This document shows, one piece after another, positions 6,058 through 55,939 of a stretch of DNA of 64,000 nucleotides (position 1 is its first letter; each line of letters opens with the position of its first letter). Location: positions 1 to 64,000 of the forward strand of contig CALAOT010000011.1 of assembly GCA_937889545.1 (NCBI GenBank), in the 5' to 3' direction. The translations under genes and the position numbers were made by a program. Source of the stretch: an uncultured Opitutaceae bacterium (GTDB lineage: Bacteria; Verrucomicrobiota; Verrucomicrobiia; Opitutales; Opitutaceae). The notes below the pieces were generated by a model. That model did no database searches. It had not been told where the DNA came from and was given only the letters and a program-made list of their open reading frames with translations.

Positions 6058-6061
6058 CACC

Positions 6062-7774: not shown

Positions 7775-7793
7775 GGGCAATCTGCGGGCTGAT

Positions 7794-8823: not shown

Positions 8824-8940
8824 CTAGTCGGCCGCACTCGTGACACCCCCTGCAACGGTGTTCGCCGCGCTTGCGGCGGTTGAGGCAACCTTGTTGCCTG
8901 CGTCCTCGATGCCGTGCCTGATATCGTCAAAAAAGCCCAT
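8824..8940 (-). CDS. 38-aa small protein, hypothetical
   Basis: A short frame starting MGFFDDIRHGIEDAGNKVAS and continuing with a low-complexity Ala/Ser/Thr/Val tail (TAASAANTVAGGVTSAAD). The frame stays open upstream, but the Met at 8940 is the natural start and has a purine-rich GGGAT about 8 nt upstream. The amphipathic N-terminus followed by an Ala/Val helix resembles small membrane-associated or stress proteins. No family can be assigned. Confidence 0.45.
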   Translation of the reverse strand: MGFFDDIRHGIEDAGNKVASTAASAANTVAGGVTSAAD

Positions 8941-9280
8941 GGTGAATATCCCTGTTCGGTGACATTGAAGGCGAGTTGTTGGTCGTGTTGCACAGAATCG
9001 CCTCCAGTTTCGGAACAACACCGATACTCGGGGAACTCGACGGTCAGTATTAGGGCTGGTCAACCGGATTATTAGCCTATGGAATGCTATTATTACATGG
9101 AATTACGTAGAAACGCTGTTCGTAATTCTTGGAGCACAAGGGTTTCTAAGAAACGCGGAACGGTGCTCCCCTATGAATTCACACCACCAAAACCACAACC
9201 CAGACCCACGGAATGCCATGTATGCTGATTCACGCCCGGACATCGGACAAGCGACAGTCGACGGAGGAATAGGGCGCGCG
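8941..9280. other. Intergenic region with an 8-bp inverted repeat
   Basis: No gene is visible here. The stretch 9060-9170 is much more AT-rich than its surroundings and contains a perfect inverted repeat, GAATTACG at 9100-9107 and CGTAATTC at 9121-9128, separated by 13 nt. There is no T-run after it, so it is more likely an operator or structured leader for the S1/P1 nuclease gene than a terminator. The region also presumably holds promoters for the small minus-strand gene and the nuclease. Confidence 0.4.
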
Positions 9281-10210: not shown

Positions 10211-10360
10211 TCGGCCCCGGAGCGGCCCGCCGTGGGCGGCGGGGAGGGCCCGTCGCCGATGACCGCCGGCCGCATGCCGGGCGTCCCGGTCGGGACGCTT
10301 CCGCGTGCCGCCCTCGGAGTCCGGCCTGCTTGCGGGGCTATCTGACCGCCGGCGCCCGGC

Positions 10361-11365: not shown

Positions 11366-11373
11366 GAAGTAAC

Positions 11374-11403
11374 GCTAATGCAGAATAGCAACAGAGCTAA
11401 TGC
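11374..11403. promoter_or_regulatory. Direct repeat GCTAATGC upstream of NUC1 gene
   Basis: GCTAATGC occurs at 11374-11381 and again at 11396-11403, 22 nt apart, about two helical turns, directly in front of the NUC1 start at 11365. Spacing and position suggest an operator for a dimeric or tandem regulator; no regulator is identified. Confidence 0.35.
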
Positions 11404-11492
11404 AAGCCATGTTATTACATAGGATCGTGCATGGTTGGCTCCGGGAAGCGGGCGGTTGCGTCCGGGCGGATCGGAGCAAAATGAGGGCGCAA

Positions 11493-12302
11493 ATGAAGAG
11501 GACCATCTTGGTCACGGGAACCTCATCCGGTTTCGGCAGGGCCACCGCCCGCCTCTTTGCCGAGCGAGGGTGGAACGTGGTAGCCACCATCCGCCGGCCG
11601 GAGGATGAACGGGATCTTCCCCGACTCCCCGGCGTGCTGGTCACGCGCCTCGACGTGCAGGACCGGGAGACGATCGCCGCGGCCATCAGCGCAGGAATCG
11701 CGCGCTTCGGGCGCATCGATGCCGTGGTCAATAACGCCGGCTTCGGCCCCTTTGAGGCGACTCCGTCGGAGAAGATTGCGGAGTAGTTCGAGGTGAAGGT
11801 CTTCGGGGTGATGGACGTCGCGCGGGCGATCCTGCCGTATTTCCGCAGGAACAAGGGCGGACTGATCCTCAACGTGGGCTCGGGCGCCGGGGTGTTCGCC
11901 CTGACGATGCTTTCGCTCTATTGCGCGAGCAAGTTCGCGCTGGAGGGCTTCTCCGAGGCGATCGCCTGCGAGCTGGCGTCGCAGAATATCGTCGTGAAGA
12001 TGATCGAGCCCGGCGGCGTCCTGAGCACGAACTTTGGGCGGCGCAGCGGCGCGGAATCCGCGCAAAACTCCGCGCTGCCCGACTTCGACGCATTTGTCGC
12101 CCACACAAACGCTGCTTTTGCCAAACTGCGCTCCGAGCGCTTGGCGACCGAGGCCGACGTCGCGCAGGCCATCTACGGCACGGACCGGTTGCGCTACGTC
12201 GCCACCGATGACATTAAGCCGCTGTTACGGGCCCCGCGCGAAACTTCCGAGGAGCAATACACTGCCTTGATGCGCGCCCGCTTCGGGCCCGCGACCCGGT
12301 AG
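11493..12302 (+). pseudogene. Short-chain dehydrogenase/reductase interrupted by TAG
   Basis: One SDR reading frame starts at 11493 (ILVTGTSSGFGRATA, the TGxxxGxG cofactor loop) and is interrupted by TAG at 11784-11786. It resumes in the same frame (FEVKVFGVMDVARAIL) to a stop at 12302. Downstream it keeps the NNAG-type turn (VVNNAGFG, before the stop), the catalytic Ser in NVGSGAG and the YCASK active site. The stop falls where related proteins usually have Gln or another residue before F-V, so a CAG to TAG change is plausible. Either the gene is dead or the base is a sequencing error; read-through is less likely. An internal restart at 11793 would lack the cofactor domain. Confidence 0.8.
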
Positions 12303-12368
12303 ACGGCAGTTGGCGAGACGGCCGGGAGCGCGCCGCTTCCGGCGGCGCGCGATGGCCATAAGCCCGGC

Positions 12369-15300: not shown

Positions 15301-16007
15301 TTCGGATGGCTGGGGTCCAGAAGGTTGGTCTGGACGAAGACGTCGAGGAACCCGTCGCGGTCATAGTCGCAAAAGGCCGCCATCACGGACGCGTCCTTGA
15401 CCGCGAGTCCCCTGGCCTGGGCCTCCTCCCTGAACGTGCCGTCACCCTGGTTGATGTAGAGGAGGTTAGGGGCCCCGAAGCGGCAGACGTAGATGTCCAG
15501 GAGCCCGTTGTTGTCCACGTCCACAAACGTCGCGCCGTGCTTCCATATCCCCGCCGACTCCCCCTTGTCGCCGACCCCGGCCCTTTCCGTCACGTCCTCG
15601 AACTTCCAGCCCCCGAGATTGCGGAATAGCCGGCAGCTCCTGGTCTTGCTCACCACAAAGATGTCCGGCCGGCCGTCGTTGTCGTAGTCGCCGATCGCCA
15701 GCCCCGTGCCGAACGAGCCGTTCTCGCTCTGGTAGTAGAGGTCCCCCCACATCCTCGGGTCGTCATACGGGTTCTCCGTGACGACCCCGGTCTCCTGCGG
15801 CGCGAGCACCTTGAACATCGTCGCGCCCCGCCGGCCCAGGCGGGAGGCCAGGGGCCGCTCGGCAATCTCGCCTGTGGAGGCCGACGATGCCGCTTGTGCC
15901 GATGGACCGGGCGAACCCGGAGCCGAACCGCCGATCAGGGACAACGGCCGGCCCACGAGCACGGCTCCGCCGGCTGCCAGGGTCTTAATGAATCTCTTGC
16001 GATTCAC
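12369..16007 (-). CDS. Double-length FG-GAP/VCBS CRTAC1-like protein with two ASPIC/UnbV domains
   Basis: A 1212-aa exported protein with an N-terminal signal (RKRFIKTLAAGGAVLVGRPLSL, a weak Tat-like pattern with RK in place of RR). It contains two successive halves. Residues ~80-500 carry calcium-binding-type repeats (DYDNDGRPDIFV, DVDNNGLLDIYV, DYDGDGWPDLYV, DLDNDGRLDLFV) ending in an ASPIC/UnbV domain near 520-600 (RFGVGSTVRIET, then LTVSWPSG). Residues ~640-1130 carry a second repeat set (DADGDGIDDLLV, DVDGDGWPDLLL, DFNGDGRPDYAV, DFDGDGNADIYA) and a second ASPIC domain (RAVGARITVEF, then IGVRWPSG). The repeats predict a beta-propeller fold. Most relatives have one set; the fused tandem is notable. 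Role unknown, probably carbohydrate or surface binding. Confidence 0.85.
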   Translation of the reverse strand: MNRKRFIKTLAAGGAVLVGRPLSLIGGSAPGSPGPSAQAASSASTGEIAERPLASRLGRRGATMFKVLAPQETGVVTENPYDDPRMWGDLYYQSENGSFGTGLAIGDYDNDGRPDIFVVSKTRSCRLFRNLGGWKFEDVTERAGVGDKGESAGIWKHGATFVDVDNNGLLDIYVCRFGAPNLLYINQGDGTFREEAQARGLAVKDASVMAAFCDYDRDGFLDVFVQTNLLDPSHPNGQRDYLFHNNSDGTFTDVTERAGISGEAQGHSSVWWDYDGDGWPDLYVANDFAVPDKLYHNNRDGTFTDTIDSVVPHTTYSSMGSDLGDVNNDGLIDLFVAEMAATTHQKDQRGFAWMRANLADPPENSGAAPQYMRNALFINTGTGRCLEAACLAGLSATDWTWSPRLEDLDNDGRLDLFVTNGMNRELHNADLYARKALAESLGEKVRIEKASPPLVEQHLAFRNMGDLRFEDVSAAWGLNQKGISFGSAFGDLDGDGNLDLVYSNYEGGVTLLRNDSDTGYRVTVALRGTRSNRFGVGSTVRIETDSGVQVRALVLARGVLSSSEPILHFGLGNDPRIRRLTVSWPSGHVQSFSDLAAERRYTITEPSAPVVPRPPNEAAPSQFSEVSSASNFSLVSRETLVDETVQQPLLPMRQNRRGPAIAVGDLNGGGKDDIVLGGTPTDPARILLAGPAARYSGADSGALPAGEPLNDGPVLLFDADGDGIDDLLVTKGGSSLPAGSAEYQPRLFLNDGRGRFRPAQADALPPLAVSAGAAAAADFDRSGRLGLFLGGRVVPGQYPLSPASALWANRGARFEDVTEQVAPGLREVGMVTGALWSDVDGDGWPDLLLTLEWGHVKYFHNDRGRTLEDWSERAGFSAAGTGWWNSIAAADFNGDGRPDYAVGNVGLNTPYLATREHPALLYYGDFNGDGDRQLVEAYYEGDRLYPRRTRQDLGAVIPNILKRFPRNDYYARATLADILGEDRLAAAQRFAATEFRSGVFLSQPDGTHRFEPLPRLAQVSPIQGLVAGDFDGDGNADIYAVQNSYSPVPSVGRFDGGLSQLLRGDGRGGFTPVAPAESNLIVPGDAKALAVVDLDQDGWPDFILSRNNSTTLAFRNNGMPGRRSLRVQLRGPKGNPRAVGARITVEFGEDPSQVAEVYAGSGYYSQSTAACFFGWSDRKPPRRIGVRWPSGATTEHDFSPRSGTLVLSAPAS

Positions 16008-16396
16008 CGGGGTTCAATAGCCGCCAGGCGCCTCGGCCGCCGGAATCTGGGGAGAACAATGGTCGCCTTCGGAGTCGAGGGCGGTCCGCCCAAGGCCGCC
16101 CCCTCCAGCACTTGCGTGCTATTCCGCCTGCCAGCGTGTTCGATTGGCGCCATTGACCAATTCAGCTTGTGGGAACGGGACTTGTTGCCTCAAGAGATTT
16201 CACCGCGCCTCGCAGGTTGACAAGCAATGTCCCGATCAAGAAGCCGCGAATGCATCTTGGGCGGGAGCGCCTGCGCCACTTCTCCCGCGGGCCGGCACGC
16301 CCTTTTGCCAAGCCCCGGTTTTCTTCGGATATCAGTTCTATTCTCCGTGTATTTGGTTCAGGGTTTTCCGACTCTTCGGCCGATGCAAAAGCACCC
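16008..16396. other. Divergent intergenic region
   Basis: About 390 bp between the start of the CRTAC1-like gene (minus) and the Met start at 16397 (plus). The plus-strand frame stays open back to 16169 but encodes residues with no membrane or family character. No RNA gene or clear repeat is seen; divergent promoters are expected here. Confidence 0.4.
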
Positions 16397-18832
16397 ATGA
16401 GCTTCCCCTTTAGGTTTTCGTCCCGAGCCTGGATGCTGGCCCCGGTTTGCGCGCTGGCATTCACCTTGTGGGCGGACCGCGTGCGGCTGCAACGCGTCGA
16501 ATTCATATCGAAGGCCGCCACGAAGGACGCCCTGGTGGACCCCTATTCGCCGACCGGCTATGCCGACGGCAAGCGGTGGCTCATCGTGCCGGAGCACGAC
16601 AACCCGACCTACCAGTGGATCGAGGAGACGCAGCTCATGTTGGCGCGCGGGGACTGGCGCGTGAGGAGCGTCGGCTATGAGAATGCGCCGTTCGGGCGGG
16701 GCGTGCACTCGGCGTCGCCGTATCGGTGGTGGCTCGTGCTGCTCGCCTGGTCCGGCCGCGCTGTCTCCGGCCAGCCGCTCGGGTTGTGCGTGGAGCGGGC
16801 CGCCCTTTATGCCGACCCGCTTCTGCATCTCCTGCTTCTGGTCGCGGCGACGGTTTTCGTGGCGCGGCGCTTTGGGCCCTTCTGCGCCGCGCTCCTTTCC
16901 CTGGGCCTGGCCGCCATCTTTCCGCTCGCGTCGGCGTTCCTCCCCGGAGTCGCGAATGACTTCGGCCTGGAGCAGATCTGCACCCTCTGGGGCGTCCTCC
17001 TGCTCGTGGCCGGGACCCTGGCCGGGCGCCACGCCTCCCGCTGGTTTTTCGCGGGAGGCGTCGCCGGCGGCTGCGGCCTGTGGCTCAGCGCAATGGGCCA
17101 GGTGCCGGTCCTCGCGGGGATCGCCGGAGGGGGGATCCTTGCAGCGCTGCAGGCGCGAGGCGGCCCGAAGGAGCCCTCGGCCGAGGGCTCAACGCTGCTC
17201 CCATGGAGGGCCTGGGCATTCGGCGGAGCGGCCTCCAGCCTGCTCGCCTACCTCGTCGAATATTTCCCGGGGCACATGGAACCGCAGCTTCGTGTCAACT
17301 ATCCCCTTTACGGGCTGGCGTGGCTCGGGCTTGGCGAGCTGCTTTGGCGGCTCGAGTCGTGGATTCGGGGAGGACGGCCGTTCGGCGGCCTGCGGGGCGT
17401 GGGCATGTGGATTCTTTCGGCGGCCGCCGTCGCCTCGCTGCCGGTCGCCATTCTGCGGAGCGGAGACCGTGCGTTCCTTGCCGACGACATGCTTTCGACC
17501 CGGCTCACAAACCTGCCCGATGGCGTCGCGGCGGCCGGCCTGTCAGCGTGGATCGGCCGCGATGGTCCCTGGGGATCCTTTGCTGCGGCCTGCCTTCCTC
17601 TCCTCCTGCTCGGTCCGGCTGCCTGGTTCCTGTTCCGCGGCCGGACGGGCGCGGTCCACCGCAGGGCGATCGCAATCGCCCTGGGGCCGGCCCTGGCGGC
17701 CCTTGCGCTTGCAATTCAAAGGCTCCGCTGGTGGAACACGCTCGATGTCGCCCTGCTCGCGCTTCTGGTGGCCGCGGCCGCGGCCGTCCACACGGCGGTC
17801 AATCCTCGGGGCAGCCGTTGGCTGTGGTCCGCGCTCCTCGGTGCGGTCCTGGCATTCGGCCTGGTGCAGCTTGTGCCCTCGGCCGGGTCCGGCGGACCAC
17901 GCGTGATCCGGCTCACCCGGGCCGAGGTCGAAGGCCTCTATGAGCGGGCCCTTTCCCAATGGATCGCGGATCACGCGGGGCCCGATGGCGCGACTGTTCT
18001 CGCGCCCCCGTTCCGCACATCGAGCCTTTGCTTTTACGGGGGACTGCGCGGGCTGGGCACCCAGAACTGGGAGAACGGGGACGGCCTGTCGGCCGCATTC
18101 CACATAGTCTCCTCGATGCGTCAGGATGAGTCGCTGTCGGTGATCAGGCAGCGCGGGGTGACCCACATCGTGCTCCCCTCATGGGACACGGATCTCGAGG
18201 AATTCGCGCGCCTGAACCTGAAGTACCCGGAGGCCTCCTTCGTCTACGCCCTGCACGGCACCGGTGGCGGCGGCTTCAACTGGCTGCGCCCGTTGCCCTA
18301 TGAGGTGCCGCCGGTCGCCGGCCTCGAACAGCAGTCGGTGCTTGTCCTCGAGGTGACGGACAGGACCGATCCGGCGACGCTGCAGGGCCGCTTCGTGGAA
18401 TACCTGGTCGAGATGCACAGGATCGACCGGGCGGCCGTCGCGAGCGGGGAGCTCCTGCGTTATCCCGCGGACCTTGGCTCCCTGGTGGCCCTGGCGCAGC
18501 TGGCAAAGGCGCGGGGCGACGACGAGGCCTTCGCCAAGGTGTTCAGATCAATCGTGTCGGGCGTCACGGGAGGCTCCGACCGGCGCCTCATTTGGGATAG
18601 GCGGGTCAGTCTGGCGGTCGTTCTGGCGCTTGGCGGACGGTCCGACCTCTCTCGCGCGCAGGTGAAGCGCTGCGTCGGGGAGGCCGACGAAGCGCGCATT
18701 CGTTTTCTCACGACAGAGTCGCTCTACCATCTCCTTCTGCTCGCCAAACGGAGCGGCACGGAGATTTCGGACCCGGGATTGCACTCGCTTTCGTTGAAAC
18801 TGCTGCCTGAGGAATTGCGCGGGCGCCTTTGA
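16397..18832 (+). CDS. Large polytopic membrane protein, possible GT-C-like fold
   Basis: About 811 aa from the ATG at 16397, where the first membrane helix (WMLAPVCALAFTLWADRV) begins two lines into the protein; earlier in-frame starts only add ~76 unsupported residues. A loop follows with NPTYQWIEETQLMLARGDWRVRS and GVHSASPYRWWLVLLAW, which resembles the first extracytoplasmic loop of STT3/GT-C enzymes (acidic residue near TQ-ML--GDWR). At least ten hydrophobic helices run to about residue 500, and the remaining ~300 residues form a soluble domain (VTHIVLPSWDTDLEEF). A membrane glycosyltransferase is a reasonable guess, not established. It converges with the GH32 gene. Confidence 0.6.
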   Translation: MSFPFRFSSRAWMLAPVCALAFTLWADRVRLQRVEFISKAATKDALVDPYSPTGYADGKRWLIVPEHDNPTYQWIEETQLMLARGDWRVRSVGYENAPFGRGVHSASPYRWWLVLLAWSGRAVSGQPLGLCVERAALYADPLLHLLLLVAATVFVARRFGPFCAALLSLGLAAIFPLASAFLPGVANDFGLEQICTLWGVLLLVAGTLAGRHASRWFFAGGVAGGCGLWLSAMGQVPVLAGIAGGGILAALQARGGPKEPSAEGSTLLPWRAWAFGGAASSLLAYLVEYFPGHMEPQLRVNYPLYGLAWLGLGELLWRLESWIRGGRPFGGLRGVGMWILSAAAVASLPVAILRSGDRAFLADDMLSTRLTNLPDGVAAAGLSAWIGRDGPWGSFAAACLPLLLLGPAAWFLFRGRTGAVHRRAIAIALGPALAALALAIQRLRWWNTLDVALLALLVAAAAAVHTAVNPRGSRWLWSALLGAVLAFGLVQLVPSAGSGGPRVIRLTRAEVEGLYERALSQWIADHAGPDGATVLAPPFRTSSLCFYGGLRGLGTQNWENGDGLSAAFHIVSSMRQDESLSVIRQRGVTHIVLPSWDTDLEEFARLNLKYPEASFVYALHGTGGGGFNWLRPLPYEVPPVAGLEQQSVLVLEVTDRTDPATLQGRFVEYLVEMHRIDRAAVASGELLRYPADLGSLVALAQLAKARGDDEAFAKVFRSIVSGVTGGSDRRLIWDRRVSLAVVLALGGRSDLSRAQVKRCVGEADEARIRFLTTESLYHLLLLAKRSGTEISDPGLHSLSLKLLPEELRGRL

Positions 18833-18929: not shown

Positions 18930-18963
18930 TCGGCCAACAGGGAATCGAACCCTGGGCCAAAGT
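18930..18963 (-). other. tRNA-like T-arm fragment at the GH32 stop
   Basis: Read on the minus strand, this stretch gives CAGGG-TTCGATT-CCCTG, a perfect 5-bp T-stem with a canonical T-loop, followed by TTGGCCGA as a possible acceptor 3' strand but no CCA. No matching 5' half is nearby. It begins just past the TAA of the GH32 frame. It may be a scar of an older tRNA-targeted integration, or chance. Confidence 0.35.
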
Positions 18964-18964
18964 G

Positions 18965-20535
18965 TTAGGGGCCGTCATTGCGAGGGCCCCAAATCGACGC
19001 CAGCTTCCATCCCTCCAGCTGCGTGCTTTTTACAGAGCCGCATAGCCCCCTTAGGCTCAGGCGGCGACTCCCCGCGGACGGCAGCAAGAGAGAGCTCAGC
19101 ACCGCCTCGTCATTGTTGGCGAATATCTCGATGGAGGAGGTGTCTACGAAGAGGTTCAGCTTTAAATGGCCGCCGATCAACCGCAGCGGGGCGGCGGCGG
19201 TGCCGGCAAACTTGGGGTGGAACCCGACGTTGCCCGATTGGGTGCGATCCAGGGTGAGCTCGCGGTTGGGCATGTCGACCCGGAGCGTGGTCGCTTCCAC
19301 CGCTCCCGTCTGCAGCGTGAGGTCGAAAACCGAGTCCGAGCCGGGCTCCGCATCGAGGCTCAGCTCGCACGGGCCGGCGACGACCCCGTCCAACCTAGCC
19401 AGCTCGGCTTGGGAGCCCAGTCCCTTGAGCGCGATAGACACGGGCTGGCCGCGCAGCGATTCCAGCTCCCTCACCGGCCGCTGCAGCAGGCGCCAGCCAT
19501 CCGGGGTTTCCCTCACGGCCAGCGACTGGGGCAGGGACATGGCGTTGCGCCACGGCGAGGTGGGCACATCGGGGGCGTAATCCCAGTTGCTCATCCAGCC
19601 AATCCACAGGCGGCGGCCGTCGGACGCCGGAACGTCGTTCCAGAAGACCGCTGCGTAGAAATCCCGGGCCCAGTCAGCCCAGAGCGGCCTTCCCGGCCGG
19701 GCGGCGGACCGGTCGGGCGCAAATCGGCGCCCGTCAAATTGCCCGACGAAATACTGGCAATCCGAGCCGCCCGCGGATGCGCCGGCGTTGACGTTGACGA
19801 TGAGAATCCATTTTAGCGCGCCCGCGCCGCCTTCCATCGGCACGGGGAAAATGTCCGGGCATTCCCAGATCCCCTCCGTGGCGCCGGGGGGGCCAAAGTC
19901 GCTCAGGTGGGACCAATCCCTCAGGTTGGGGGAGCCGTAGAAGCGCACGTTCCGGTGGGCGGGCCACGAAACCGCCATCACCCACCGCCGGGTCGGCTCA
20001 TGCCAGAAAACCTTCGGGTCGCGAAAGTCCGCCTCACCGATGTCGAGCACGGGATTGCCGGAGAACTTCGTCCAGGTCCGCTCCCGGTCATTGCTGTACG
20101 CCAGGTTCTGGTTCTGCCGCGGCCGCCTGGTGTAATGCCCGGTGTAGATGGCCACGAGCGGAGGCTCTTTTCCCCGTCCAAACCCGCTGGTGTCCTGCCA
20201 GTCGACCACGGCGCTCCCGGGAAAGACCATCACCTCGTTGGCCTCAGGGAGCGCGAGGGCGAGCTGCTCCCAATGCACCAGGTCCCTGCTGACCGCATGG
20301 CCCCAGCTCATGTGGCCCCATTTGATGCCTTCCGGGTTGTACTGGTAGAAGAGGTGGAACTCCTCTTGGAAGAAGACCAACCCGTTCGGGTCGTTCATCC
20401 AGTTCCTGGCCGGGGTGAAATGAAACTGGGGGCGCCATGGCTTGCGGTAGGCTCGGCGGCGCCCAGCCGAGGCGCCAGGCCGAGGCAGGCGACGGTGAGA
20501 AGCGGGATCAGGCGGAGAAGACCGCGGGTGTCCAT
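18965..20535 (-). CDS. GH32 fructan hydrolase (levanase/inulinase/invertase type), frameshift after the signal peptide
   Basis: The catalytic part (from Met at 20398, 477 aa) begins at WMNDPNG, which carries the nucleophile Asp. The other hallmarks follow: EADFRDPK (RDP motif) and WECPDIFPV (EC motif, acid/base Glu), then a C-terminal beta-sandwich (LDLTLQTGAVEATTLRVD-like region, SSIEIFANNDEAVLSS). Just upstream the bases still encode the conserved PQFHFTPARN in the GH32 frame, but the signal peptide (MDTRGLLRLIPLLTVACLGL from ATG 20535) is in another frame. A single-base indel near 20440-20465 therefore separates export signal and enzyme. The family hydrolyses beta-fructosides. It lies 64 bp downstream of a sugar porter gene, a logical pair for fructan use. 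Confidence 0.82.
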
Positions 20536-22043: not shown

Positions 22044-22088
22044 TGGTGGGCCCACAGGGATTCGAACCCTGATCAAAAGGATTATGAG
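22044..22088 (-). repeat. Left-most tRNA(CAU) 3' half (attachment-site copy)
   Basis: Minus-strand sequence equals positions 32-73 of the intron-bearing tRNA plus an encoded CCA: anticodon loop CTCATAA, then the T-arm and acceptor strand TGGGCCCACCA. Its variable region (TTGAT) differs from the complete copy (TGGTT). No 5' half adjoins it; homology stops at the anticodon loop. This is the outer-left boundary of the island. Confidence 0.85.
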
Positions 22089-22139
22089 GCCTCAAGTCGT
22101 ACTTTACAAACTATCTTACCAAATGATAAGTATACTTAC

Positions 22140-23267: not shown

Positions 23268-23821
23268 CCTTTCTTGAGAATGCTTCACGGCGCACGGGTG
23301 GCTCTGTGATTGATTACTTTGCCCCGCAACGATCGTCAGCTGGGTGGCTATGGGTAATGAGGCAGCCTAAAGAAAGAACATAGGAATCTTGCGGTGGCCG
23401 CAGGCCTAGGCCGTTGACGGGCTTCAAGAATCCGGGCCGACGTTTTCTTGGAGAAGATCAATTGTGTTGTAACCTCTTGGTATGGAGTGGTGGGCCCACA
23501 GGGATTCGAACCCTAGAGCCGCCAATCTCGACAGAGCGGAATTCACGAGGGGTTTCCTCTCTGAGAATCCGTATATCATGGTTTTATGTTATTTCAGTAC
23601 GACGCATCGAAACTGCACGGAGATGAACGAAAATGAAGCGAATAACGCCATAGTGGCGGCATGCTGGCGGCAATGAATCGACCCTCGGCCACCTTTGCGG
23701 CCGACCCCTTGCGGCGATGCGCCTAAATTGATAGAATCCCTCTCACAATGCCCGCAGCGGGGCACAGGTGATGGACGAGTTCTTGGCCGGCACGCGCACA
23801 AAGGCGAATCTGGTTGCCTTG
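23268..23821. other. Gene-poor island stretch with a tRNA fragment
   Basis: About 550 bp with no convincing gene. At 23488-23514 (minus) it holds a T-arm and acceptor fragment of the CAU tRNA with encoded CCA, the homology ending abruptly at the base of the T-stem. The apparent frames across it merely translate the tRNA remnant. GC is clearly lower than in the flanking chromosome. Confidence 0.6.
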
Positions 23822-27225: not shown

Positions 27226-27271
27226 TGGCGGGCCCACAGGGATTCGAACCCTGAACCAAAGGATTATGAGT
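27226..27271 (-). repeat. tRNA(CAU) 3' half beside the integrase (attachment copy)
   Basis: Matches tRNA positions 31-73 plus CCA, with G instead of A at the discriminator position. The variable region is almost as in the complete copy. Homology ends just past the anticodon loop. Its place 85 bp upstream of the integrase start marks it as an attachment site and as the boundary between the integrase module and the Srf-like cargo. Confidence 0.85.
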
Positions 27272-27334
27272 ACCTGCTGCCCATGCCGGGACCCTATGAC
27301 CGGGATGATGTCGCTGCACGGAATGTTCAATTGG

Positions 27335-44481: not shown

Positions 44482-44526
44482 TAGTGGGCGCACAGGAATT
44501 CGAACCCCGAACCCAAGGATTATGAG
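44482..44526 (-). repeat. Diverged tRNA(CAU) 3' half (attachment copy)
   Basis: Matches positions 32-73 of the tRNA with several changes (acceptor strand TGCGCCCA, T-stem CGGGG). It ends in CTA rather than CCA. It closes the Srf-like cargo on the right, 45 nt after the kinase stop, and is the most mutated of the long copies. Confidence 0.75.
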
Positions 44527-44660
44527 GCCCTAGGTGCAGATCGGCAGGCATGAGTCGGCTATGGTCCGTAGGCAAATGACAAGATGGGGTTCGATGGAAA
44601 GACGCATTCGGAAGATGAAATTAATATTGTTTTTCAAGATACGGCCCCTAAGGCTTGCCG

Positions 44661-46265: not shown

Positions 46266-46303
46266 TGGTGGACTCACAGGGATTCGAACCCTGAATCAAA
46301 GGA
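46266..46303 (-). repeat. Partial tRNA(CAU) 3' segment (attachment copy)
   Basis: Covers the acceptor strand, T-arm and variable region with encoded CCA, stopping before the anticodon loop (the sequence diverges after CAAAGGA). The acceptor strand is mutated (TGAGTCCA). The neighbouring ATPase fragment is cut off at this point. Confidence 0.75.
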
Positions 46304-46833: not shown

Positions 46834-48009
46834 TCAGTGCTGCGGCGTCGCCTTAGCGGCTGGCTTGGGACCGGCGGGGGACGTGGGCGGCAACTTGGAA
46901 TTCGCGTTGTCGGGATGGATGGTCCCCTCGAAACCCTGCGACAAGGCCTTTACGAAGCCATGATGCAGACCGTTCGCTATAGTCCTCAGCGTCTTCACAT
47001 CCAGGCCCTGCGCATCGCCCGAGAAAGGGACCCGGGTGGCCAACTGCTTTGTCTCGCTGTTCTTGAACAATTCGAGCACGGCGACGACGGCGCTCTTCCA
47101 TATGCGCTCCCCAATGTTTTTCTTATCATTGTCAAAATTCTTGAAGTCGACGTGGTCCAGGAACGGTTTCACGTATCCCTCATAGTGTCCCTTTTGCATG
47201 GCCATCTGTCCGAATATTTCGAACTGCCCCCGTGACGCGTCGATGCCGACGTAGGCCCTAAGCAAATCGTTCAGAGCCGGTAGCGAAACCTTTTTCAATT
47301 CAACGGCTAGTTCGAAGTGAGGCTGAACGGCAAGAGGCTCCAATTTCGCGTGAAGGCGCAGCTGGCCGTTTCCGAGCGATCGGCCCGAGATATCAATCTT
47401 CGCAGGAAAGACGTCGCCGGTCTCCGACGGGCGGTTGCGCAAGCCCGTGGCAATGACCTCAATGTCTTGGATCGCGACGTCCACGCGCGGCTCTCGCGTC
47501 GTGTCGACAAAGCGAATGATGCCGCCCTTTATCTCGAGATGCGCGATATCGATCGGGAAGATGTCGTTGATGGCATCCTGCCAGCGGTGGTCGGCTGTTA
47601 GCTGGCTCGTCTCATCGCTGGGGCCGTGAAGAAATACCAGGCGCCCGTCCGTGACATAGATGTCGCTGACAAATCTTCCGCGGAATAGGTCCCGCCAGGC
47701 GACGGAGAAGTCGATCCTGCTCGCGGTGAAGAATGGTTCTGGTACCTTTCCGTTGCTCTTGACGATTTCGATATCGTCAATGCGGTATGCGCCCCGCCAC
47801 AGGTGCAGACCGATATCGCCCACGTGACCCGCATAGCCGGGTATCTGGCTGAGCCGGCGATTGATTGCACGGTGAACGTAACTCGGCGCCAATAGCCGTG
47901 CGGCCACAGCAGTCGCAGCGATAGCCAGCACCGTCCACAGAATCGCGCTCGGCCAGCGGCGAATCCAGCGAGCATAGGGCCTTTTCTTCGATTCGAACGA
48001 TGGGCCCAT
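46834..48009 (-). CDS. AsmA/DUF748-like membrane-anchored protein
   Basis: A 391-aa protein with one N-terminal membrane helix (AILWTVLAIAATAVAARLLA, residues ~22-42). A beta-rich domain typical of AsmA-like/DUF748 proteins follows: VGDIGLHLWRGAYRIDDIEI, then FVSDIYVTDGRLVFLHG, IDIAHLEIKGGIIRFVDTT and LRLHAKLEPLAVQPHFELAV. A low-complexity Pro/Ala tail ends it. AsmA-like proteins form hydrophobic grooves in the periplasm that carry lipids toward the outer membrane. It stands alone inside the island, so it may be captured cargo. Confidence 0.75.
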   Translation of the reverse strand: MGPSFESKKRPYARWIRRWPSAILWTVLAIAATAVAARLLAPSYVHRAINRRLSQIPGYAGHVGDIGLHLWRGAYRIDDIEIVKSNGKVPEPFFTASRIDFSVAWRDLFRGRFVSDIYVTDGRLVFLHGPSDETSQLTADHRWQDAINDIFPIDIAHLEIKGGIIRFVDTTREPRVDVAIQDIEVIATGLRNRPSETGDVFPAKIDISGRSLGNGQLRLHAKLEPLAVQPHFELAVELKKVSLPALNDLLRAYVGIDASRGQFEIFGQMAMQKGHYEGYVKPFLDHVDFKNFDNDKKNIGERIWKSAVVAVLELFKNSETKQLATRVPFSGDAQGLDVKTLRTIANGLHHGFVKALSQGFEGTIHPDNANSKLPPTSPAGPKPAAKATPQH

Positions 48010-50266: not shown

Positions 50267-50270
50267 GGCC

Positions 50271-50631
50271 TCAGCGCGCCCTCAGCTCACGCACCAGCCG
50301 GCCGACCCAACTGGGGTCGGCGCCGACGGGAAGCTCCAGCAAAACGCCGGTGTTCAGATGGACGATGAAACCGGGCGATGAGCTTGCGGCCTCAACCGCC
50401 GCCTCGGCAATGCCGGTCTTCACGGCCGGCCGGCCTAGGCCGGAGCCCAACCGATTTGCGCCAATAGTAAAAAGTCTGTTCACACAGCCCGTGCTCCCGG
50501 CAGAATGCCGACACAGGCTTCCCGCTCCTCTCGAATAGCGCCAGGTACTCCGCCTTCTCCTCCTCGCTCCGCGGTGCTCGTCTCGGGCCGCCTGCTGTCT
50601 TGGTCGTTCTGGCGCTGATTCTCGGATTCAT
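50271..50631 (-). pseudogene. tnpA: IS66-family accessory protein TnpA, frameshifted
   Basis: The first frame (50631 to about 50440) encodes the HTH part: RSEEEKAEYLALFERSGKPV, then SAFCREHGLCEQTFYYWRKS. The second frame carries the end: VKTGIAEAAVEAASSSPGFI and VHLNTGVLLELPVGADPSWV, stop at 50271. A single indel around 50420-50450 would join them to a normal ~120-aa TnpA. The break may immobilise the element. Confidence 0.8.
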
Positions 50632-50688
50632 CCCGACAGCTTATCCGGAACCTCCGGCGACGTCATCCTGTCCGAAATGAACGCGTCC

Positions 50689-50703
50689 CCAAAGGATTAT
50701 GAG
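50689..50703 (-). repeat. 15-bp tRNA(CAU) anticodon-region fragment
   Basis: CCAAAGGATTATGAG equals the anticodon loop and the 3' strand of the anticodon stem only. It lies inside a decayed gene, exactly where the reading frame stops making sense. It marks the minimal core shared by all junctions and so probably the crossover region. Confidence 0.6.
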
Positions 50704-50907
50704 GTGGCACCTTCGGTGTCCACAACCATGGCCCAATGTCCACGTTCGTCCGCTCTGGCGCCTAGACGTTTTTCTTGGTACATCGACTGATTTTCTTACC
50801 CTTAGATGACCCTCTATGAACTTTCTCGCATACTCCTCCCGGTTGAAGAACCGGAGAAGTGTCTTAGGATATTCGCCGCTAACTCGACTCTTTCGTTGCA
50901 TTGCCAA
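50704..50907 (-). pseudogene. 5' fragment of a small gene, truncated at an attachment core
   Basis: Starts MAMQRKSRVSGEYPKTLLRF, then FNREEYARKFIEGHLRVR, and loses coherence after about 40 residues. A shifted frame resumes protein-like sequence (LGARADERGHWAMVVDTEGA) up to the 15-bp tRNA core at 50703. The LRFFNREEYARKFIEG pattern resembles N-termini of an uncharacterised accessory protein family. It is frameshifted and cut off. Confidence 0.55.
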
Positions 50908-50919
50908 AAACTAAGATAG

Positions 50920-51218
50920 TGGGCCCACAGGGATTCGAACCCTGAACCAAAGGATTATGCCTCCCACTTCGGCTTTCGCCGCCGATGTCCGTTGGGGGAT
51001 TCGTTCGTGGTCTGGAACATGCCTTCACCATGCCGTTTCCGGTTTAGGTGGGTGATTATGTTCTCTACACCTTACCGCGCTTTCGCGCGGGCTTGGCTCG
51101 GCATTGGGTCGCCCTGGGAAGGCAGGCCGTTCACCGAGTTTACACCTGACTACTGGCAGATTTCTCCGCCAGCGACCCATTCTTGAGTCCTCTGCTCTAA
51201 CCGTTGAGCTATAGGCCC
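50920..51218 (-). tRNA. tRNA with anticodon CAU (Ile2 or elongator Met), interrupted by an intron
   Basis: Exons 51218-51186 (33 nt) and 50959-50920 (40 nt) join to a canonical 73-nt tRNA. The acceptor stem is GGGCCTA/TGGGCCC (one G-U), the D-stem GCTC/GAGC, the anticodon stem GAGGA/TCCTT with loop CTCATAA, and the T-stem CAGGG/CCCTG with TTCGAAT loop. The anticodon CAU is at 50959-50957. G1-C72 pairing excludes an initiator. The GGGCCTA...GACTCATAATC pattern is more like tRNA-Ile2 (lysidine-modified) than elongator Met, but this is not certain. The 3' end is followed by CTA, not CCA. It is the only complete copy in the window. Confidence 0.9.
50960..51185 (-). ncRNA. Group I intron (IC3/Azoarcus-like) in the tRNA anticodon loop
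   Basis: A 226-nt insert between tRNA positions 33 and 34. P1 pairs exon GACU (51189-51186) with internal guide GGUC (51177-51174), with the splice-site U-G wobble. P2 is an 8-bp hairpin with a GAAA loop (51153-51172). P4 pairs CTCGG (51138-51134) with CCGAG (51101-51097). A P6 hairpin with GAAA loop is at 51075-51090. P7 pairs GAACAT (51063-51058) with ATGTTC (51020-51015), after the hallmark AAGGTGTAGAGA. The GGTGAAGGCATG and ACCCACCTAA blocks match the Azoarcus tRNA-Ile intron. The intron ends in G. It has no ORF, so it would be a small self-splicing ribozyme. Confidence 0.92.
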
Positions 51219-51563
51219 GAAATATCCAAAGAACATCAAGAGGGTGGGTAGTCCCGCCTTCGTTCTCAACAGGAATCTGAGCGGGCCATGCCAGCGATGT
51301 CTGCTCTTCCAAGGCCCATATCCGTCCAAAGTGTGACCGTCAGGTTATGAGCCTGACCTGTTTTCCCTATGAGAAGACCCAGAAAAACCCCTGTTTTTGG
51401 GGGACTTTTTTGGGGGGCGACCGGCAGGCGCCGTTCGGTACAGTTGGCAGTTTTTTGAACGCAGATTCACGGAATCTGTGGATTGGCAGAGTGTGCGAGC
51501 TTCCTGTCGAATGGCGTGTTAAGACCAACGGATTGAGTCGGTCCCGCGAGCAATTGATCGACC
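51219..51563. other. Intergenic stretch upstream of the tRNA
   Basis: About 345 bp between the 5' end of the intron-bearing tRNA and the AbiEii remnant. No gene or RNA is evident. It contains a run-rich segment near 51380-51415 (AAAACCCC, TTTTTGGGGGG); the tRNA promoter should lie next to 51219. Confidence 0.4.
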
Positions 51564-52344
51564 TTATTCCGGAGCAGAATGCACAAGGCGAATGAACTCC
51601 TGGACACGGGCTGCTGCCTGCTGTTTGCGGATTGCGCGGGGCTCACCGAGCAGCTGCTCGATGTCGGCGACGATGCGCGGGCCTTCGTCCTCTTCGTCGT
51701 GGAATTTCGCGGCCATTTTGCCCAGTGCCTCAGCCACGAGCGCATCATCGTGCCACGGGTGGAACAGGGCTGCGAGAGCCTTCAGGCCGTCGGGATATGC
51801 CTCCAGGCAGAAATGAATATCGTAGGCGTCCTTTTCGGTTGGTGCGGCCGTGCATCGCGAGGCTCTTCATCACGAGAAAGGCGACGATTCCGGCAACGCG
51901 CAGGGTGGCGTGATCCCCAACGGGGACCAAGGCGTTGTCGGCAAACGCGACATCCGCCCCTCGGATCGGCTCCGGGGCTTGATCGGGACGCGTGCCGGCG
52001 AAATGCGTGTCGTAGTGACGCTGACTGGTAAGCAGATCGAGGCGGGCAAGGCAGGTCCGGCCATTCGGCAAAGGTATCTCCTTAAAGAACTGGTATCCGT
52101 GCTCGCCTTGGTGGAAGCCGTGTTCGCCGAGAATGGCGATCAACCGGGCGTATCCGTCGCGCTGCAGCCGTAGGGCGACGTCAACATCGATGCTTCCGAC
52201 GTGCGCCGGTCGAGCTTTCGGGAACAGAACCTCAGGCACCCAGCCGCCCACCAGTACGGCGTCATCCCGGTGCTCGGTGAGCAGAGCGCAGACCTCGCGC
52301 AGGAGTGCCCGAGCCGCTGTTACCTGCTCACTGCTCGGTGGCAT
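51564..52344 (-). pseudogene. AbiEii/AbiGii-type nucleotidyltransferase toxin, frameshifted
   Basis: From ATG 52344 the first frame (to about 51830) encodes EVCALLTEHRDDAVLVGGWV followed by SIDVDVALRLQRDGY, the GG-W and D-D-A features of AbiEii nucleotidyltransferases, then VAFLVMKSLAMHGRT. There the frame shifts; the next frame continues EKDAYDIHFCLEAYPDGLKA and the helical C-terminal domain to TAA at 51564. One indel in the CCGAAAAGG region (about 51828-51840) is enough. It overlaps the antitoxin gene by 17 bp. The toxin kinase-like KDxxDI motif lies right at the break, so the encoded product is probably inactive. Confidence 0.82.
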
Positions 52345-53419
52345 GGTGAGGGAAGAGCTTCGTCTCCCACAAATGCTTGGCGGCTTCGGCACCCCGCGCG
52401 GGCTCCCGCTGAAGGTCGAGGTAAAGCTGCAGCGGTGAAACAACGGGGATCCCGCCTACTTCCTCCTTTGCAAAAAAGGCGCCTTGGTCGCGCGGCGCAA
52501 TGATCTGCACGTTAGCGCCTGATTCGACGGGCTTCAGTCCGAGCGCCTGGGCGAGTTCATCCGGATCGCCCTGCCAATATGCCTGCGTGCGGTTGTAGCG
52601 CACCATGGGCGCAATCCTCCACGCACCGGCGGTGCCGGTGAGCGCAAACGGGCGATCATTCTGGCGCGCGAAGTCAGCCATTTGGCGCTCGGCGTCTTCC
52701 AGCGGCGCCCGAGTAAAATAGGCCTTTGTGCGTTCGCGCCGACGTGCCCAGACGGCGGCCCAGTCGGCGAGCAGCTTTTCCGGGTGCGTAAGCTGGATTC
52801 CGTTTGGCGTTTCTTTCGCCCACTCCCGCTCCAATAGGATCGTGCGGACCGTCGAGACCGTGCCGAGACTGACATGGGCCTTGTCACCCAGTGAAACCAC
52901 TTTCCACGCCTTGTCTTTGCCCTCGAAGAGCGCCCGTAATATCCTCTCGCTCTTCGGTGCGTAGAGGCCCGGAGTGGCCGTAAGACGATTTTTGCGGGCC
53001 GGGTTCGGATTTCCGGTCCGCTCGATATAGTAATTGCCGAACACGAGGCGGCAATTACCGGCTAGATCGTAGTAGCCTACGTTTTCTTCCTTACAAATGG
53101 CGGCTCCGTCTTCGGTAATATAAGGCGCTGCCACAACCGGATAGTCGTTGCGGTGTGAGTGGCGGTAGTAACGCAGGAGGTGGTTTACGGCCTCGCGCAG
53201 TTGGCGAGGATGCCCTGGGCTCTTTAGTTCCACCACGAGCGTGTCCAAGCGGTGGGCGGTCGTCACACCCACAGTCAAATCTGCATGTTGGGCCATGTCC
53301 TTTTGGTCGCTGTTTTGATCGTGATCCCAGTCTAGTCCGACGACAGCAGGTACACTGCGAAGGATGCGCTCCAAGGTTTCGCGAGCCTTGGGAAGGAGTT
53401 CATTTTCAGTTTGTATCAT
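52328..53419 (-). CDS. AbiEi-type antitoxin/autorepressor (type IV TA)
   Basis: A 363-aa protein matching AbiEi-family antitoxins of the longer AbiEi_2 kind. The N-terminal portion contains a nuclease-fold-like region (LTVGVTTAHRLDTLVVELKS, YYRHSHRNDYPVVAAPYITE). A winged-helix segment follows (LYAPKSERILRALFEGKD, then VSLGTVSTVRTILLER), and a C-terminal domain ends VVSPLQLYLDLQREPARGAE. The antitoxin is intact while its toxin is frameshifted. Type IV antitoxins counter toxin action without binding it and repress their own promoter; a repeat-rich AT region precedes the start. Confidence 0.82.
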   Translation of the reverse strand: MIQTENELLPKARETLERILRSVPAVVGLDWDHDQNSDQKDMAQHADLTVGVTTAHRLDTLVVELKSPGHPRQLREAVNHLLRYYRHSHRNDYPVVAAPYITEDGAAICKEENVGYYDLAGNCRLVFGNYYIERTGNPNPARKNRLTATPGLYAPKSERILRALFEGKDKAWKVVSLGDKAHVSLGTVSTVRTILLEREWAKETPNGIQLTHPEKLLADWAAVWARRRERTKAYFTRAPLEDAERQMADFARQNDRPFALTGTAGAWRIAPMVRYNRTQAYWQGDPDELAQALGLKPVESGANVQIIAPRDQGAFFAKEEVGGIPVVSPLQLYLDLQREPARGAEAAKHLWETKLFPHHATEQ

Positions 53420-53420
53420 G

Positions 53421-53501
53421 TTTCAGAATATTGTGATATATGTTTGACACTGAAAATCAATGATAATTTCAGTTTAAATACGAAATTACTGTTTACTGAA
53501 A
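53421..53501. promoter_or_regulatory. TTTCAGT/ACTGAAA inverted repeats before AbiEi
   Basis: TTTCAG at 53421 and ACTGAAA at 53449, then TTTCAGT at 53467-53473 and ACTGAAA at 53495-53501, form two inverted pairs in an AT-rich promoter just upstream of the AbiEi start (53419). AbiEi proteins bind inverted repeats in their own promoters, so this is a strong operator candidate. Confidence 0.6.
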
Positions 53502-53830
53502 ACCGTCATAAAATGAAAACTATGGCACTTGAAGGGCTCCTGTGGAACTTATAAAGCCCGAATTCGACTCGGCATCCGCCAATCAAATTATTCTGCCGGA
53601 AACATTTAGGGTGATTTGGCGCGTGCTTGGTTACCCATCCGTATCACCAAAACCGCCCAGTCCGACCGATACGATTCTACGCCAACGTCCTTTGCTCAAC
53701 TTCCGGCTGCCCGAAATCGGGGTCCCCATCTTGGGAGCATGAACATCGTGGCTCTAACCGGTGGGAAACCCGCGGCTGAGGTGGTCCAAGGGAGGGCTCT
53801 CCTTGGGCAACCAGCGCAAAGGCGGAAGCC
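53502..53830. other. Intergenic stretch without a clear gene
   Basis: About 330 bp. A 66-residue open frame starting at 53542 has no protein-like pattern and no ribosome site, so I do not call it. Probably promoter and leader for the membrane protein at 53831. Confidence 0.35.
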
Positions 53831-54433
53831 GTGAAGAGCCCCTTCGCCTGGTTTGAATCTGTGGGCGGCGCTCCGCCCATTTCTGCCAAAGTCATTACTG
53901 TTTCAATCCACACCGTTTGCTCCGTGACCGGCAAGATTGGCGCCGCGGGCGCCGTCATCTGCTATTTTGGAAGCCACCTTGCGATGATGGCGCGCGCCTT
54001 CTATTCCCACTCCCCGTTCTTTCGGGGGTGGGGATGGCAGTTCATTGTCGAGTGCGCCTCAGTACTGGAGAATCACCTTAGGGCGTACGTTTGCTACTTT
54101 TATGGGTTATGTGTCTTTCCTTTGATACGATCTCTGTTTCTCCGTCTCCTCGGCATTCACGAGCCTGAGGCTAACAAGGAGATGGGCGACCTGAATGCCG
54201 CCAAACGGCCACACCAATTCGTACGCCGCTTAATTGCGTGCCTGCTGCTCATTCCGTTTGTGCAGGTTTTCTTGGGGGCCTTAGCGGGGATTATGACTCT
54301 GGTCCTGGTTCTTGTTCTTTTCTCAGTGCATGCGTTGGTGGGTTGCCGACGTTACGGTGGGATCCTTTACTTCTGGATGAGAGTGGCAGGACGGATCGGG
54401 ATACGGAATATGGTGCGTCGTCGGTACCGTTGA
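53831..54433 (+). CDS. Hypothetical membrane protein
   Basis: A 200-aa protein with several hydrophobic segments: VCSVTGKIGAAGAVICYFGS (~31-50), AYVCYFYGLCVFPLIRSLFL (~85-104) and a long C-terminal one (CLLLIPFVQVFLGALAGIM, then LVLVLVLFSVHALVG). It ends in a basic tail (RRRYR). The next gene starts 1 nt after its stop codon. Family unrecognised; an immunity or accessory role for the neighbouring phosphoesterase is only speculation. Confidence 0.55.
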   Translation: MKSPFAWFESVGGAPPISAKVITVSIHTVCSVTGKIGAAGAVICYFGSHLAMMARAFYSHSPFFRGWGWQFIVECASVLENHLRAYVCYFYGLCVFPLIRSLFLRLLGIHEPEANKEMGDLNAAKRPHQFVRRLIACLLLIPFVQVFLGALAGIMTLVLVLVLFSVHALVGCRRYGGILYFWMRVAGRIGIRNMVRRRYR

Positions 54434-54434
54434 T

Positions 54435-55868
54435 ATGAACACAACCTCCCGCCCATCCACATTGGTCATTGGCGACGTCCACCACCGGATCGATGCGTCC
54501 CGCCATTTGATCGCTAAGTATTCAGCACGTTGCCAGCGCACGGTCTTCCTTGGCGATTACTTCGATGCATTCGGAGACGGACCGCGGGAAATGCGCGCAT
54601 CCTGCCAATGGCTCCGGCGCTCACTAAAGGTTCCTACCCGCACGCACCTCTTGGGTAATCACGATTTGGCCTACTTTCTTACTCAACACCCGCAGGCATG
54701 GTGTCCTGGCTGGACCCCGAAGAAGCAGCAAGTCTTCGATGAGGAGGTGGCTGGGATTGGAATTGGTTCCTTCCGCATAGCCACGGCCCATGAACTCGCA
54801 TCGAAGCTGCCGCTGATTGAGGAAGCGGGCCTCACGGAGTCCTTCTGTAGTCGGGTTAGGCAGTTACCGCGCTGCCGATGCCCGGAGCACGGGGTCAAGA
54901 CGGTGCGTGTGCCGTGGGCGGAGAAGGACTCGCGCTTTACGCTGCATTTCGAGGCGTTGGCGGTGGAGATGATCGGAGCATGCCGGTCGCTCATCCAGGC
55001 GGCCGATCTGCTGCAATTGGACTGGGACGGGGTGCAACGCATCGTCGATCGAGCGGTGGCCCGGGGCCTGTTGCGGCGCTCGACCGAGGGAGTGCGCTAT
55101 GTCGGGCTCGACGAGAAGAGCTTTGGCCGGGGCCAGCGTTATGTCTCGATCGCCACCGACATCAAGGGAGCACGAGTCCTGGAGGTGGTGCCGGGTAACG
55201 ACCAGGCGGCCGGAGAGTCGCTGTGGCGGGCTTTGCCGCCAGAGCAGAGGAGCAAGGTGGAGGCCGCGGCCATGGACATGAGTGCAGGCTTCGCCGCGGT
55301 GACCCGCGCCCAGGCTCCGCAGGCAGCCATTGTCCACGACAAGTTTCATGTGGCCAAGCTGCTCAACGATGCGGTCGACCAGACCCGGCGGGCCGAACAC
55401 CAGCAGCTCCATGCCGAGGGAGACGACACGCTCAAAAACACCCACTATTTGTGGCTGCACGGGCAATTGCCAGAGGCCAAGCAGGCCAGCTTCGCCGAGC
55501 TTTTGGAGATCAACCTGAAGACCGCCAGGGCCTGGGCCTACAAAGAACAATTTGTCGAGTTCTGGGGACAGGCGGACGCCGCTCAGGGCTTTGACTTCTT
55601 CACCCAATGGAAGCGATCCGTCATGCGCAGCCGTCTCACCAAGGTGAAGACGGTCGCCAAAACCCTTCACCAGCATCTGACCAACCTGCTGACCTACTTC
55701 ATGCATCCGATTACGAATGCCGTCAGCGAGGGCTTCAATTCCCGCATCCAAGCCATCAAGGCCGACGCCCGCGACTTCCGCCGCTTCTTCAACTATCGCT
55801 CTCGGATCCTTTTTCACTGTGGTAAACTCAACATGCTCCCGGTCCTCCCTGAGTCAGCGAGCCACTAG
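54435..55868 (+). CDS. Metallophosphoesterase N-terminus fused in frame to a 5'-truncated ISL3 transposase
   Basis: A 477-aa chimeric frame. Residues 1-~140 are a calcineurin-like phosphoesterase start with metal motifs TLVIGDVHH, FLGDYFDAFGD and LLGNHDLAYF; later metal histidines are missing. From about residue 143 (54861) the sequence is an ISL3-family transposase lacking its first ~60 residues: LPRCRCPEHGVKTVRVPW (end of the Zn ribbon), the HTH DLLQLDWDGVQRIVDRAVAR, and DDE motifs VGLDEKSFGRGQ, VHDKFHVAKLLNDAVD and ITNAVSEGFNSRIQ. The catalytic core is complete. The fusion arose by insertion plus deletion; whether any protein is made is unknown. Confidence 0.82.
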   Translation: MNTTSRPSTLVIGDVHHRIDASRHLIAKYSARCQRTVFLGDYFDAFGDGPREMRASCQWLRRSLKVPTRTHLLGNHDLAYFLTQHPQAWCPGWTPKKQQVFDEEVAGIGIGSFRIATAHELASKLPLIEEAGLTESFCSRVRQLPRCRCPEHGVKTVRVPWAEKDSRFTLHFEALAVEMIGACRSLIQAADLLQLDWDGVQRIVDRAVARGLLRRSTEGVRYVGLDEKSFGRGQRYVSIATDIKGARVLEVVPGNDQAAGESLWRALPPEQRSKVEAAAMDMSAGFAAVTRAQAPQAAIVHDKFHVAKLLNDAVDQTRRAEHQQLHAEGDDTLKNTHYLWLHGQLPEAKQASFAELLEINLKTARAWAYKEQFVEFWGQADAAQGFDFFTQWKRSVMRSRLTKVKTVAKTLHQHLTNLLTYFMHPITNAVSEGFNSRIQAIKADARDFRRFFNYRSRILFHCGKLNMLPVLPESASH

Positions 55869-55901
55869 GAAACCGGAAGAACCTGAAATACCCGTTTCGT
55901 T

Positions 55902-55939
55902 TTATGAGTCCTCTGCTCTAACCGTTGAGCTATAGGCCC
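55902..55939 (-). repeat. Orphan tRNA(CAU) 5' half, right border of the island
   Basis: Minus strand positions 1-38 of the tRNA (GGGCCTATAGCTC... to the anticodon loop CTCATAA), identical to the 5' exon of the intron-bearing copy and without an intron. Homology stops exactly at the 3' side of the anticodon loop; the ISL3 remnant end follows. With the 3' half at 22044-22088 it would rebuild a whole tRNA, sharing the 7-nt loop as overlap. Confidence 0.88.

Follow-up and report, generated by a model that had tools for sequence, protein, structure and literature searches.

Group I introns in tRNA-Ile2 genes are known, as is the grammar by which genomic islands occupy tRNA genes. The introns of the Azoarcus tRNA-Ile(CAU) gene and of its betaproteobacterial counterparts are small, contain no ORF, share a common core and lie after the anticodon, with the 3′ exon starting past CAU. 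The accessible part of the tRNAscan-SE 2.0 report explains missing CAU tRNAs by group I introns in 36 genomes, in tRNA-Ile2 and tRNA-fMet (PMC8450103); the cases in that part come from Acidovorax, Burkholderia and cyanobacteria, and it names neither Verrucomicrobiota, nor insertion between positions 33 and 34 (33/34), nor a leader. Islands in the Islander collection are marked by a tRNA gene and displaced fragments of it; according to the portion of that report considered here, 5′ fragments are rare (159 of 3919 islands) and tandem arrays of at least three are rarer still (4) (PMC4383910). Finally, boxA elements of rRNA and suhB follow the consensus GYTCTTTAANA in gammaproteobacteria, in a study whose consulted sections leave non-coding RNAs aside (PMC5725501), and the available text of PMC10931766 describes Nus factors acting at boxA as blocking Rho and assisting the folding of rRNA. 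Here we describe a locus of an uncultured Opitutaceae bacterium at which these systems appear to meet.

The window, that is the whole 64,000-nt stretch analysed, carries on its minus strand (51218-50920) a tRNA(CAU) gene resembling tRNA-Ile2 that is interrupted between positions 33 and 34; features given below are on the minus strand unless marked otherwise. The 5′ exon (51186..51218, tRNA positions 1-33) is identical to the intronless tRNA of six congeners. The 226-nt group I intron (50960..51185) is supported by ARAGORN, an alignment of its kin and the covariance model R1 described below, and the 3′ exon (50920..50959, positions 34-73), taken from the joined-exon tRNA call, does not encode CCA. 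ARAGORN without its intron option found zero tRNAs in the window; with that option it called c[50919,51218]. The joined exons (51218-51186 plus 50959-50920) yielded a clean 74-base tRNA(CAU), as the first-pass annotation had anticipated when it described a 226-nt insert in a CAU tRNA. That annotation had also placed the intron at 33/34, and kin whose introns start with bases other than CA fix the site there. The last intron base, a G in the same annotation, is G in all 19 sequences compared.

The site distinguishes this intron from the Azoarcus type, which it resembles in tRNA class, size, lack of an ORF and core: theirs follows the anticodon, the Opitutaceae one precedes it. Two further groups provide points of reference. 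Four Opitutaceae genomes (G019, G028, G038, G077) carry an intron in the same tRNA, in the same family and with the same kind of boxA-like leader (4/4), but inserted after CAU, at 36/37, and with a weaker match to R1 (37-50 bits). Parcubacteria-type introns in initiator-like tRNA(CAU) genes (L051, L093, L102, L103, L106, L123) also occupy 33/34, with a preceding U in five of six and a terminal G; they differ in tRNA, in phylum and in having no boxA-like leader.

For the fold we aligned 13 sequences, the window intron and 12 kin at the same site, over a structure that includes P1, P2, P3, P4, P6, P7, P8 and P9. P1 (51174..51189) pairs GACU (51189-51186) of the 5′ exon with GGUC (51177-51174), places a U.G pair at the 5′ splice site and is unchanged in 13 of 13 sequences, so the guide pairing and wobble proposed earlier are present. 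P2 (51152..51173) is a hairpin of nine pairs, seven of them changed on both sides. P3 (51146-51143 with 51054-51051) consists of four invariant pairs; P4 (51097..51138) joins 51138-51134 to 51101-51097 as CUCGG/CCGAG, and P6 (51075..51090) is the hairpin CCGCGC-GAAA-GCGCGG. P7 (51015..51063) pairs GAACAU (51063-51058) with AUGUUC (51020-51015), encloses P8, is 100% paired and shows both-side changes in two of its six pairs. One of these is A-U in the window and C-G in the 12 kin, a paired change like those that the first-pass annotation had invoked for P7 relative to the Azoarcus intron. Over the whole alignment 97.6% of 588 cells are paired and 15 of 46 pairs change on both sides; none of 500 shuffles reached either the pairing or the covariation value. 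The P2, P4, P6 and P7 pairings read from the single sequence are all present. The compensatory changes fall in P2, P6, P7 and P8, while P1, P3 and most of P4 are invariant and lend no covariation support. The folding energy of the intron is likewise low (z = -3.39 against 200 shuffles). As for P10, at most three pairs can form in the window and they are not conserved among kin, and we do not claim this pairing. With P3, P4, P6, P7 and P8 present, a U.G pair at the 5′ splice site and a terminal G, the insert has the features of a group I core.

A search with the Rfam model RF00028, suggested earlier as a check, was negative: the intron was not reported at the gathering score or up to E = 1. The kin intron L086 was likewise unmatched, and an Azonexus relative of the Azoarcus intron (L067) reached 40.1 bits against a cut-off of 50, for which reasons the negative result looks like a weakness of the model rather than a defining biological feature. 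R1 is a covariance model of Opitutaceae cores built from 13 sequences, the window intron included. It matched 14 of 14 introns tested from other hosts and viruses, all preselected by the core pattern, with a lowest score of 44 bits, and gave 63.2 bits (E 7.8e-18) for the Azonexus intron. Together with the fold, this kinship of cores supports the assignment of the insert to group I introns related to the Azoarcus tRNA-Ile type. Azoarcus-like group I introns also interrupt tRNA genes on several viral contigs (L139, L141, L142, L150, L151, L152, L149, L146), and L152 had the top R1 score of the 14, 104.7 bits.

The core pattern had picked out 105 stretches from genome contigs and 17 from viral ones. 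Twelve of the stretches have an intron at the identical site of the same tRNA, in Opitutia/Verrucomicrobiota (one labelled Akkermansia muciniphila). R1 matched 12 of 141 relatives, the source genome counted: eight strongly, at 33/34, and four weakly, these being the 36/37 introns introduced above. In a phylum sample nine of 387 matched: introns at 33/34 account for six of them and introns at 36/37 for two, and the ninth interrupts a tRNA-Arg from outside the Opitutaceae. Among 12 congeners, one of them 64% complete, there was no R1 match, and in six the intronless tRNA is 100% identical to the joined exons across 73 nt. Since congeners go without the intron and few relatives match R1, we take it from these comparisons to be a recent or patchy feature of the lineage. 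Three kin (G015, G435, G019) have a second, intronless tRNA-Ile2 copy besides the intron-bearing one. In the one-contig genome G015 (C1) the intronless gene (1267239-1267311) and the intron-bearing gene (1289509-1289653) lie on one strand, 22 kb apart, and a possible island is located between these two whole copies.

Whether the cell depends on splicing turns on what other tRNAs can read AUA. The interrupted gene is distinct from the other CAU tRNAs of the genome (one elongator-Met-like, two initiator-like), and we take it to be tRNA-Ile2 by elimination of the other CAU classes. The genome, a draft of 128 contigs with 92% completeness and 0.44% contamination, has 41 tRNAs passing the Rfam cut-off; no further complete tRNA-Ile2 was found in it. 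tilS is present, and AUA occurs 26 times among the 9223 codons of 18 ORFs chosen for the count. Because the only detected tRNA-Ile2 is interrupted while tilS is present and AUA is used, splicing is probably needed to read this codon. It need not be essential in G015, G435 and G019, owing to their intronless second copy.

The same extra copies in kin would suit a different view, in which the gene is a pseudogene, its intron a mere inert relic, and AUA is read by a tRNA absent from the assembly. The draft evidently misses some tRNAs, since at least tRNA-Asn(GUU) was not found in it either, and the 3′ exon encodes no CCA. Both exons, though, are 100% identical to the working tRNA of congeners, P1, P3 and P7 have kept all their pairs, and the leader motif is intact, at a locus where nearby tRNA fragments have drifted; a relic would be expected to retain none of these features. 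With exons, P1, P7 and leader all intact, we consider a relic distinctly unlikely.

The surroundings of the gene indicate how the interrupted copy may have arisen. At 4.7 kb upstream of the intron-bearing gene, the 5′ half of this tRNA recurs as an intronless fossil (55902..55939, positions 1-38, 100% identical to congeners). It is on the side of genes that are neighbours of tRNA-Ile2 in congeners: in G003 one for a transporter, about 680 bp from the tRNA, and in G008 three at a distance of 4-9 kb. The half is closed by an element-end sequence, AAAACGAAACGGGTATTTC (55885..55903), which also follows tRNA-Phe 5′ halves on contig C58 of the source genome. There, four tRNA-Phe 5′ parts, one of them an anticodon arm only, have an ending of the AAAACGAAACGGGTATTTC type with at most one mismatch and a fifth has a looser one; all five are upstream of the intact tRNA-Phe. 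The pattern, with one mismatch allowed, occurs in five of 149 other family genomes, in none of them beside tRNA halves. In our reading these arrangements are the work of elements that interrupt a tRNA just past position 38 and provide a new 5′ part. The C58 region as a whole (G000, ~4905-18800; L165, L248, L258-L261), with ends resembling AACGAAxCxGG, has the appearance of a train of elements restoring the tRNA-Phe 5′ half. On contig C73 of the same genome (26855-47796) several weak tRNA-like hits come after a tRNA-His gene (47723-47796) and may be another such train, made up of tRNA fragments.

Six 3′ fragments of tRNA-Ile2 are spread out downstream of the interrupted gene: 46269..46303 (positions 39-73, 91%), 44485..44529 (29-73, 89%), 27230..27278 (23-72, 96%), 23491..23514 (50-73, 100%), 22047..22093 (27-73, 94%) and a weak one at 18932..18976 (27-71, 78%, E 7.8e-6). 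A tRNA gene with correctly oriented displaced fragments is the mark of a tRNA-integrated island, and the tandem-integrated island recognized in the first-pass annotation is thus recovered, as is its reading overall of a group I intron at 33/34 in a tRNA island hot spot. Unlike most Islander cases, one 5′ and six 3′ fragments surround a single gene here, and no PF00589 integrase was found on its contig, C11; the 12 matches to that family in the genome are all elsewhere. An AbiEi-like antitoxin gene (52328..53419) occupies part of the 4.7 kb that separate the fossil half from the interrupted tRNA. An ISL3 element (54865..55883, plus strand) begins 18 nt beyond the ending of the fossil half; an ORF (54435-55868, plus strand) fuses an N-terminal stretch without a Pfam hit in frame to its transposase. 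At 51357-51335, 117 nt upstream of the intron-bearing tRNA, there is a 23-nt copy (96%) of the anticodon arm from L020, an initiator-like tRNA; this copy may be another attachment-site relic.

Insertion sequences and a draft of 128 contigs raise the question of whether an assembler joined two strains at IS elements, given that IS66 and ISL3 elements are found within 5 kb on either side. The tRNA, intron and leader nevertheless share one IS-free stretch (50267-54864), the exons have the sequence of the genus and contamination is 0.44%, and we regard a chimaera as very improbable.

The second unusual feature of the gene is its leader. Comparison of flanks revealed a boxA-like sequence, GTTCTTTGG (51226..51234), which starts 16 nt ahead of the tRNA 5′ end; like the fossil half, it had gone unnoticed in the first-pass annotation. 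A -35-like TTGAGA (51264..51269) precedes it by 35 nt; a sigma-70 consensus scan of 50600-51600 gave no complete promoter. The motif has GYTCTTT, as in the organism's own rRNA, and the GG after it differs from the gammaproteobacterial AANA. In the rRNA spacer of the source genome, TTTTGTTCTTTGAAAGTC stands just before the 23S gene and fits boxA, and the spacer's GTTCTTTGAAA is alike the rRNA/suhB consensus in the part of PMC5725501 cited above; the Opitutaceae motif precedes a single tRNA gene. A looser form of the motif is found within 45 nt of three of 41 other tRNAs of the genome, one of them in the rRNA spacer.

Across the family, 25 of 26 tRNA-Ile2 genes with an intron (22 at 33/34 and four at 36/37) have GTTCTTT in the 25 nt ahead of them, against 1 of 51 genes without one (Fisher p 5.7e-18). 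The intronless set is not random; it comprises eight congeners, three second copies and 40 further best-ranked hits of a longer list. Omitted from the count were L125 (genome of L167, short flank), the duplicates L168, L170, L171, L219 and L230, and L267 (contig end), L187 (11-nt flank) and L192 (genome of L187). When flanks more than 60% alike were collapsed, the motif remained in 19 of 20 intron-bearing and 1 of 45 intronless genes. There are two exceptions: G032 (L172) has the intron and no motif, and G002 is intronless with GTTCTTT just 8 nt off the gene. In the three genomes examined that have both kinds of gene (G015, G435, G019) the motif is at the intron copy only (3/3), and the fossil half at 55939 has no boxA-like motif. 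A TTG -35-like hexamer is found 34-37 nt before the motif in 13 of 25 motif-bearing flanks. Common ancestry of the flanks as the source of the motif was rejected, their mean identity before the motif being 0.32.

A general link between boxA and tRNA introns was likewise rejected: the motif is upstream of none of 83 intron-bearing tRNAs outside the family, and viral intron-bearing tRNAs have a boxA-like motif upstream in 2 of 17 cases (L149, L152). On these counts the coupling would be a trait of the family, perhaps common to some phages.

Is the motif read as boxA at all? It could serve instead as an RNA decoy, with GUUCUUUG pairing with CAGAGGAC of the 5′ exon (two G.U), so that it would mimic the anticodon stem on its 3′ side and steer how the pre-tRNA folds. 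Eight pairs are indeed possible in the window when G.U is allowed, and tRNA positions 39-46 read TCCTTTGG. Yet kin with GGGGAC for GAGGAC keep the leader GTTCTTT without a matching change, a pairing of this kind would be in competition with P1, no partner of this sort accompanies the GTTCTTTGAAA of L149, a viral tRNA-Leu (by eye), and the motif is present in the genome's own rRNA spacer. A decoy thus seems unlikely to us, and we continue with boxA.

Our preferred account, to which we would assign a probability of about three in four as a whole, is that of a self-splicing intron in the only tRNA-Ile2 gene detected, a gene history of splitting by elements, and antitermination at boxA. Splicing in the cell, Nus-factor binding and the order of events are what we infer here from sequence. 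For the reaction, guanosine would attack after U33, aligned by P1 (GACU/GGUC, with its U.G pair), and the freed U33 would attack after the terminal G of the intron, joining exons 1-33 and 34-73 into a 73-nt tRNA, which would then need CCA added and presumably lysidine, by TilS.

For transcription, RNA synthesis should start at the leader or shortly before it, and the leader would bind NusB-S10 and convert the polymerase to an antitermination complex of the rRNA type. A 75-nt pre-tRNA would be barely exposed to Rho; one with some 230 nt of untranslated, structured intron would be exposed. Given this exposure and the roles of Nus factors, boxA may let the polymerase finish the gene, keeping Rho from stopping it within the ~230 nt of untranslated RNA, and may aid folding of the ribozyme, so that the intron folds well.

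As to history, the lineage would have begun with an intronless tRNA, the one that its congeners have. Next, an element that targets tRNA genes would have split it just past position 38, so that the fossil half stayed behind at 55939-55902; the replacement 5′ part would have been provided 4.7 kb downstream, where the functional copy has both intron and boxA-like leader. Because the native fossil half has no motif, the joint arrival of leader, 5′ exon and intron is favoured. The other order, in which the intron entered by reverse splicing or recombination after the element had restored the gene, and not with the new 5′ part, is a serious candidate, though we hold it at less than even odds. In its favour, integrases that act in the anticodon loop require this loop to be uninterrupted (sub-site A, in the section of PMC4383910 on these enzymes), and an intron at 33/34 splits it; the 3′ fragments at 27278, 22093 and 44529 keep an intact CTCATAA loop. 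However, the boxA leader that is characteristic of genes with an intron is present at the intron copy, and the motif is absent from 11 of 12 intronless genes with longer flanks (L179-L186, L262-L264 and the organism's own half), which favours arrival as a package.

Returning to joint arrival, a wider proposal follows the same lines, and we offer it tentatively, at just short of an even chance. The intron-bearing tRNA of Opitutaceae would be an rRNA-style unit in which boxA loads Nus factors that stop Rho and chaperone the ribozyme; leader, 5′ exon and intron would travel as a package, here by way of a tRNA island hot spot; and the intron at 33/34 may shield the gene from integrases that use the loop. 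The last point extends the idea of Randau and Soell, as given in the available part of PMC4390854, that tRNA introns shield genes from integrases.

The 33/34 site in Verrucomicrobiota and the coupling of boxA to a tRNA intron look new; the open-access literature searched, in the parts available, mentions neither the site in this phylum nor boxA together with a tRNA intron. In practical terms, RF00028 and annotation pipelines with intron-blind tRNA callers miss such tRNA introns and, with them, probably essential tRNAs. If true, the account would join two systems not known to meet, the ribozyme intron of a tRNA and the Nus/boxA machinery of rRNA synthesis, and would suggest that host transcription factors assist the splicing of bacterial introns. 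The fossil half beside the intron copy would be a rare record of a tRNA intron free of a homing endonuclease reaching a new host, and the locus may serve as a bacterial test case for the protection of genes by tRNA introns from integrating elements.
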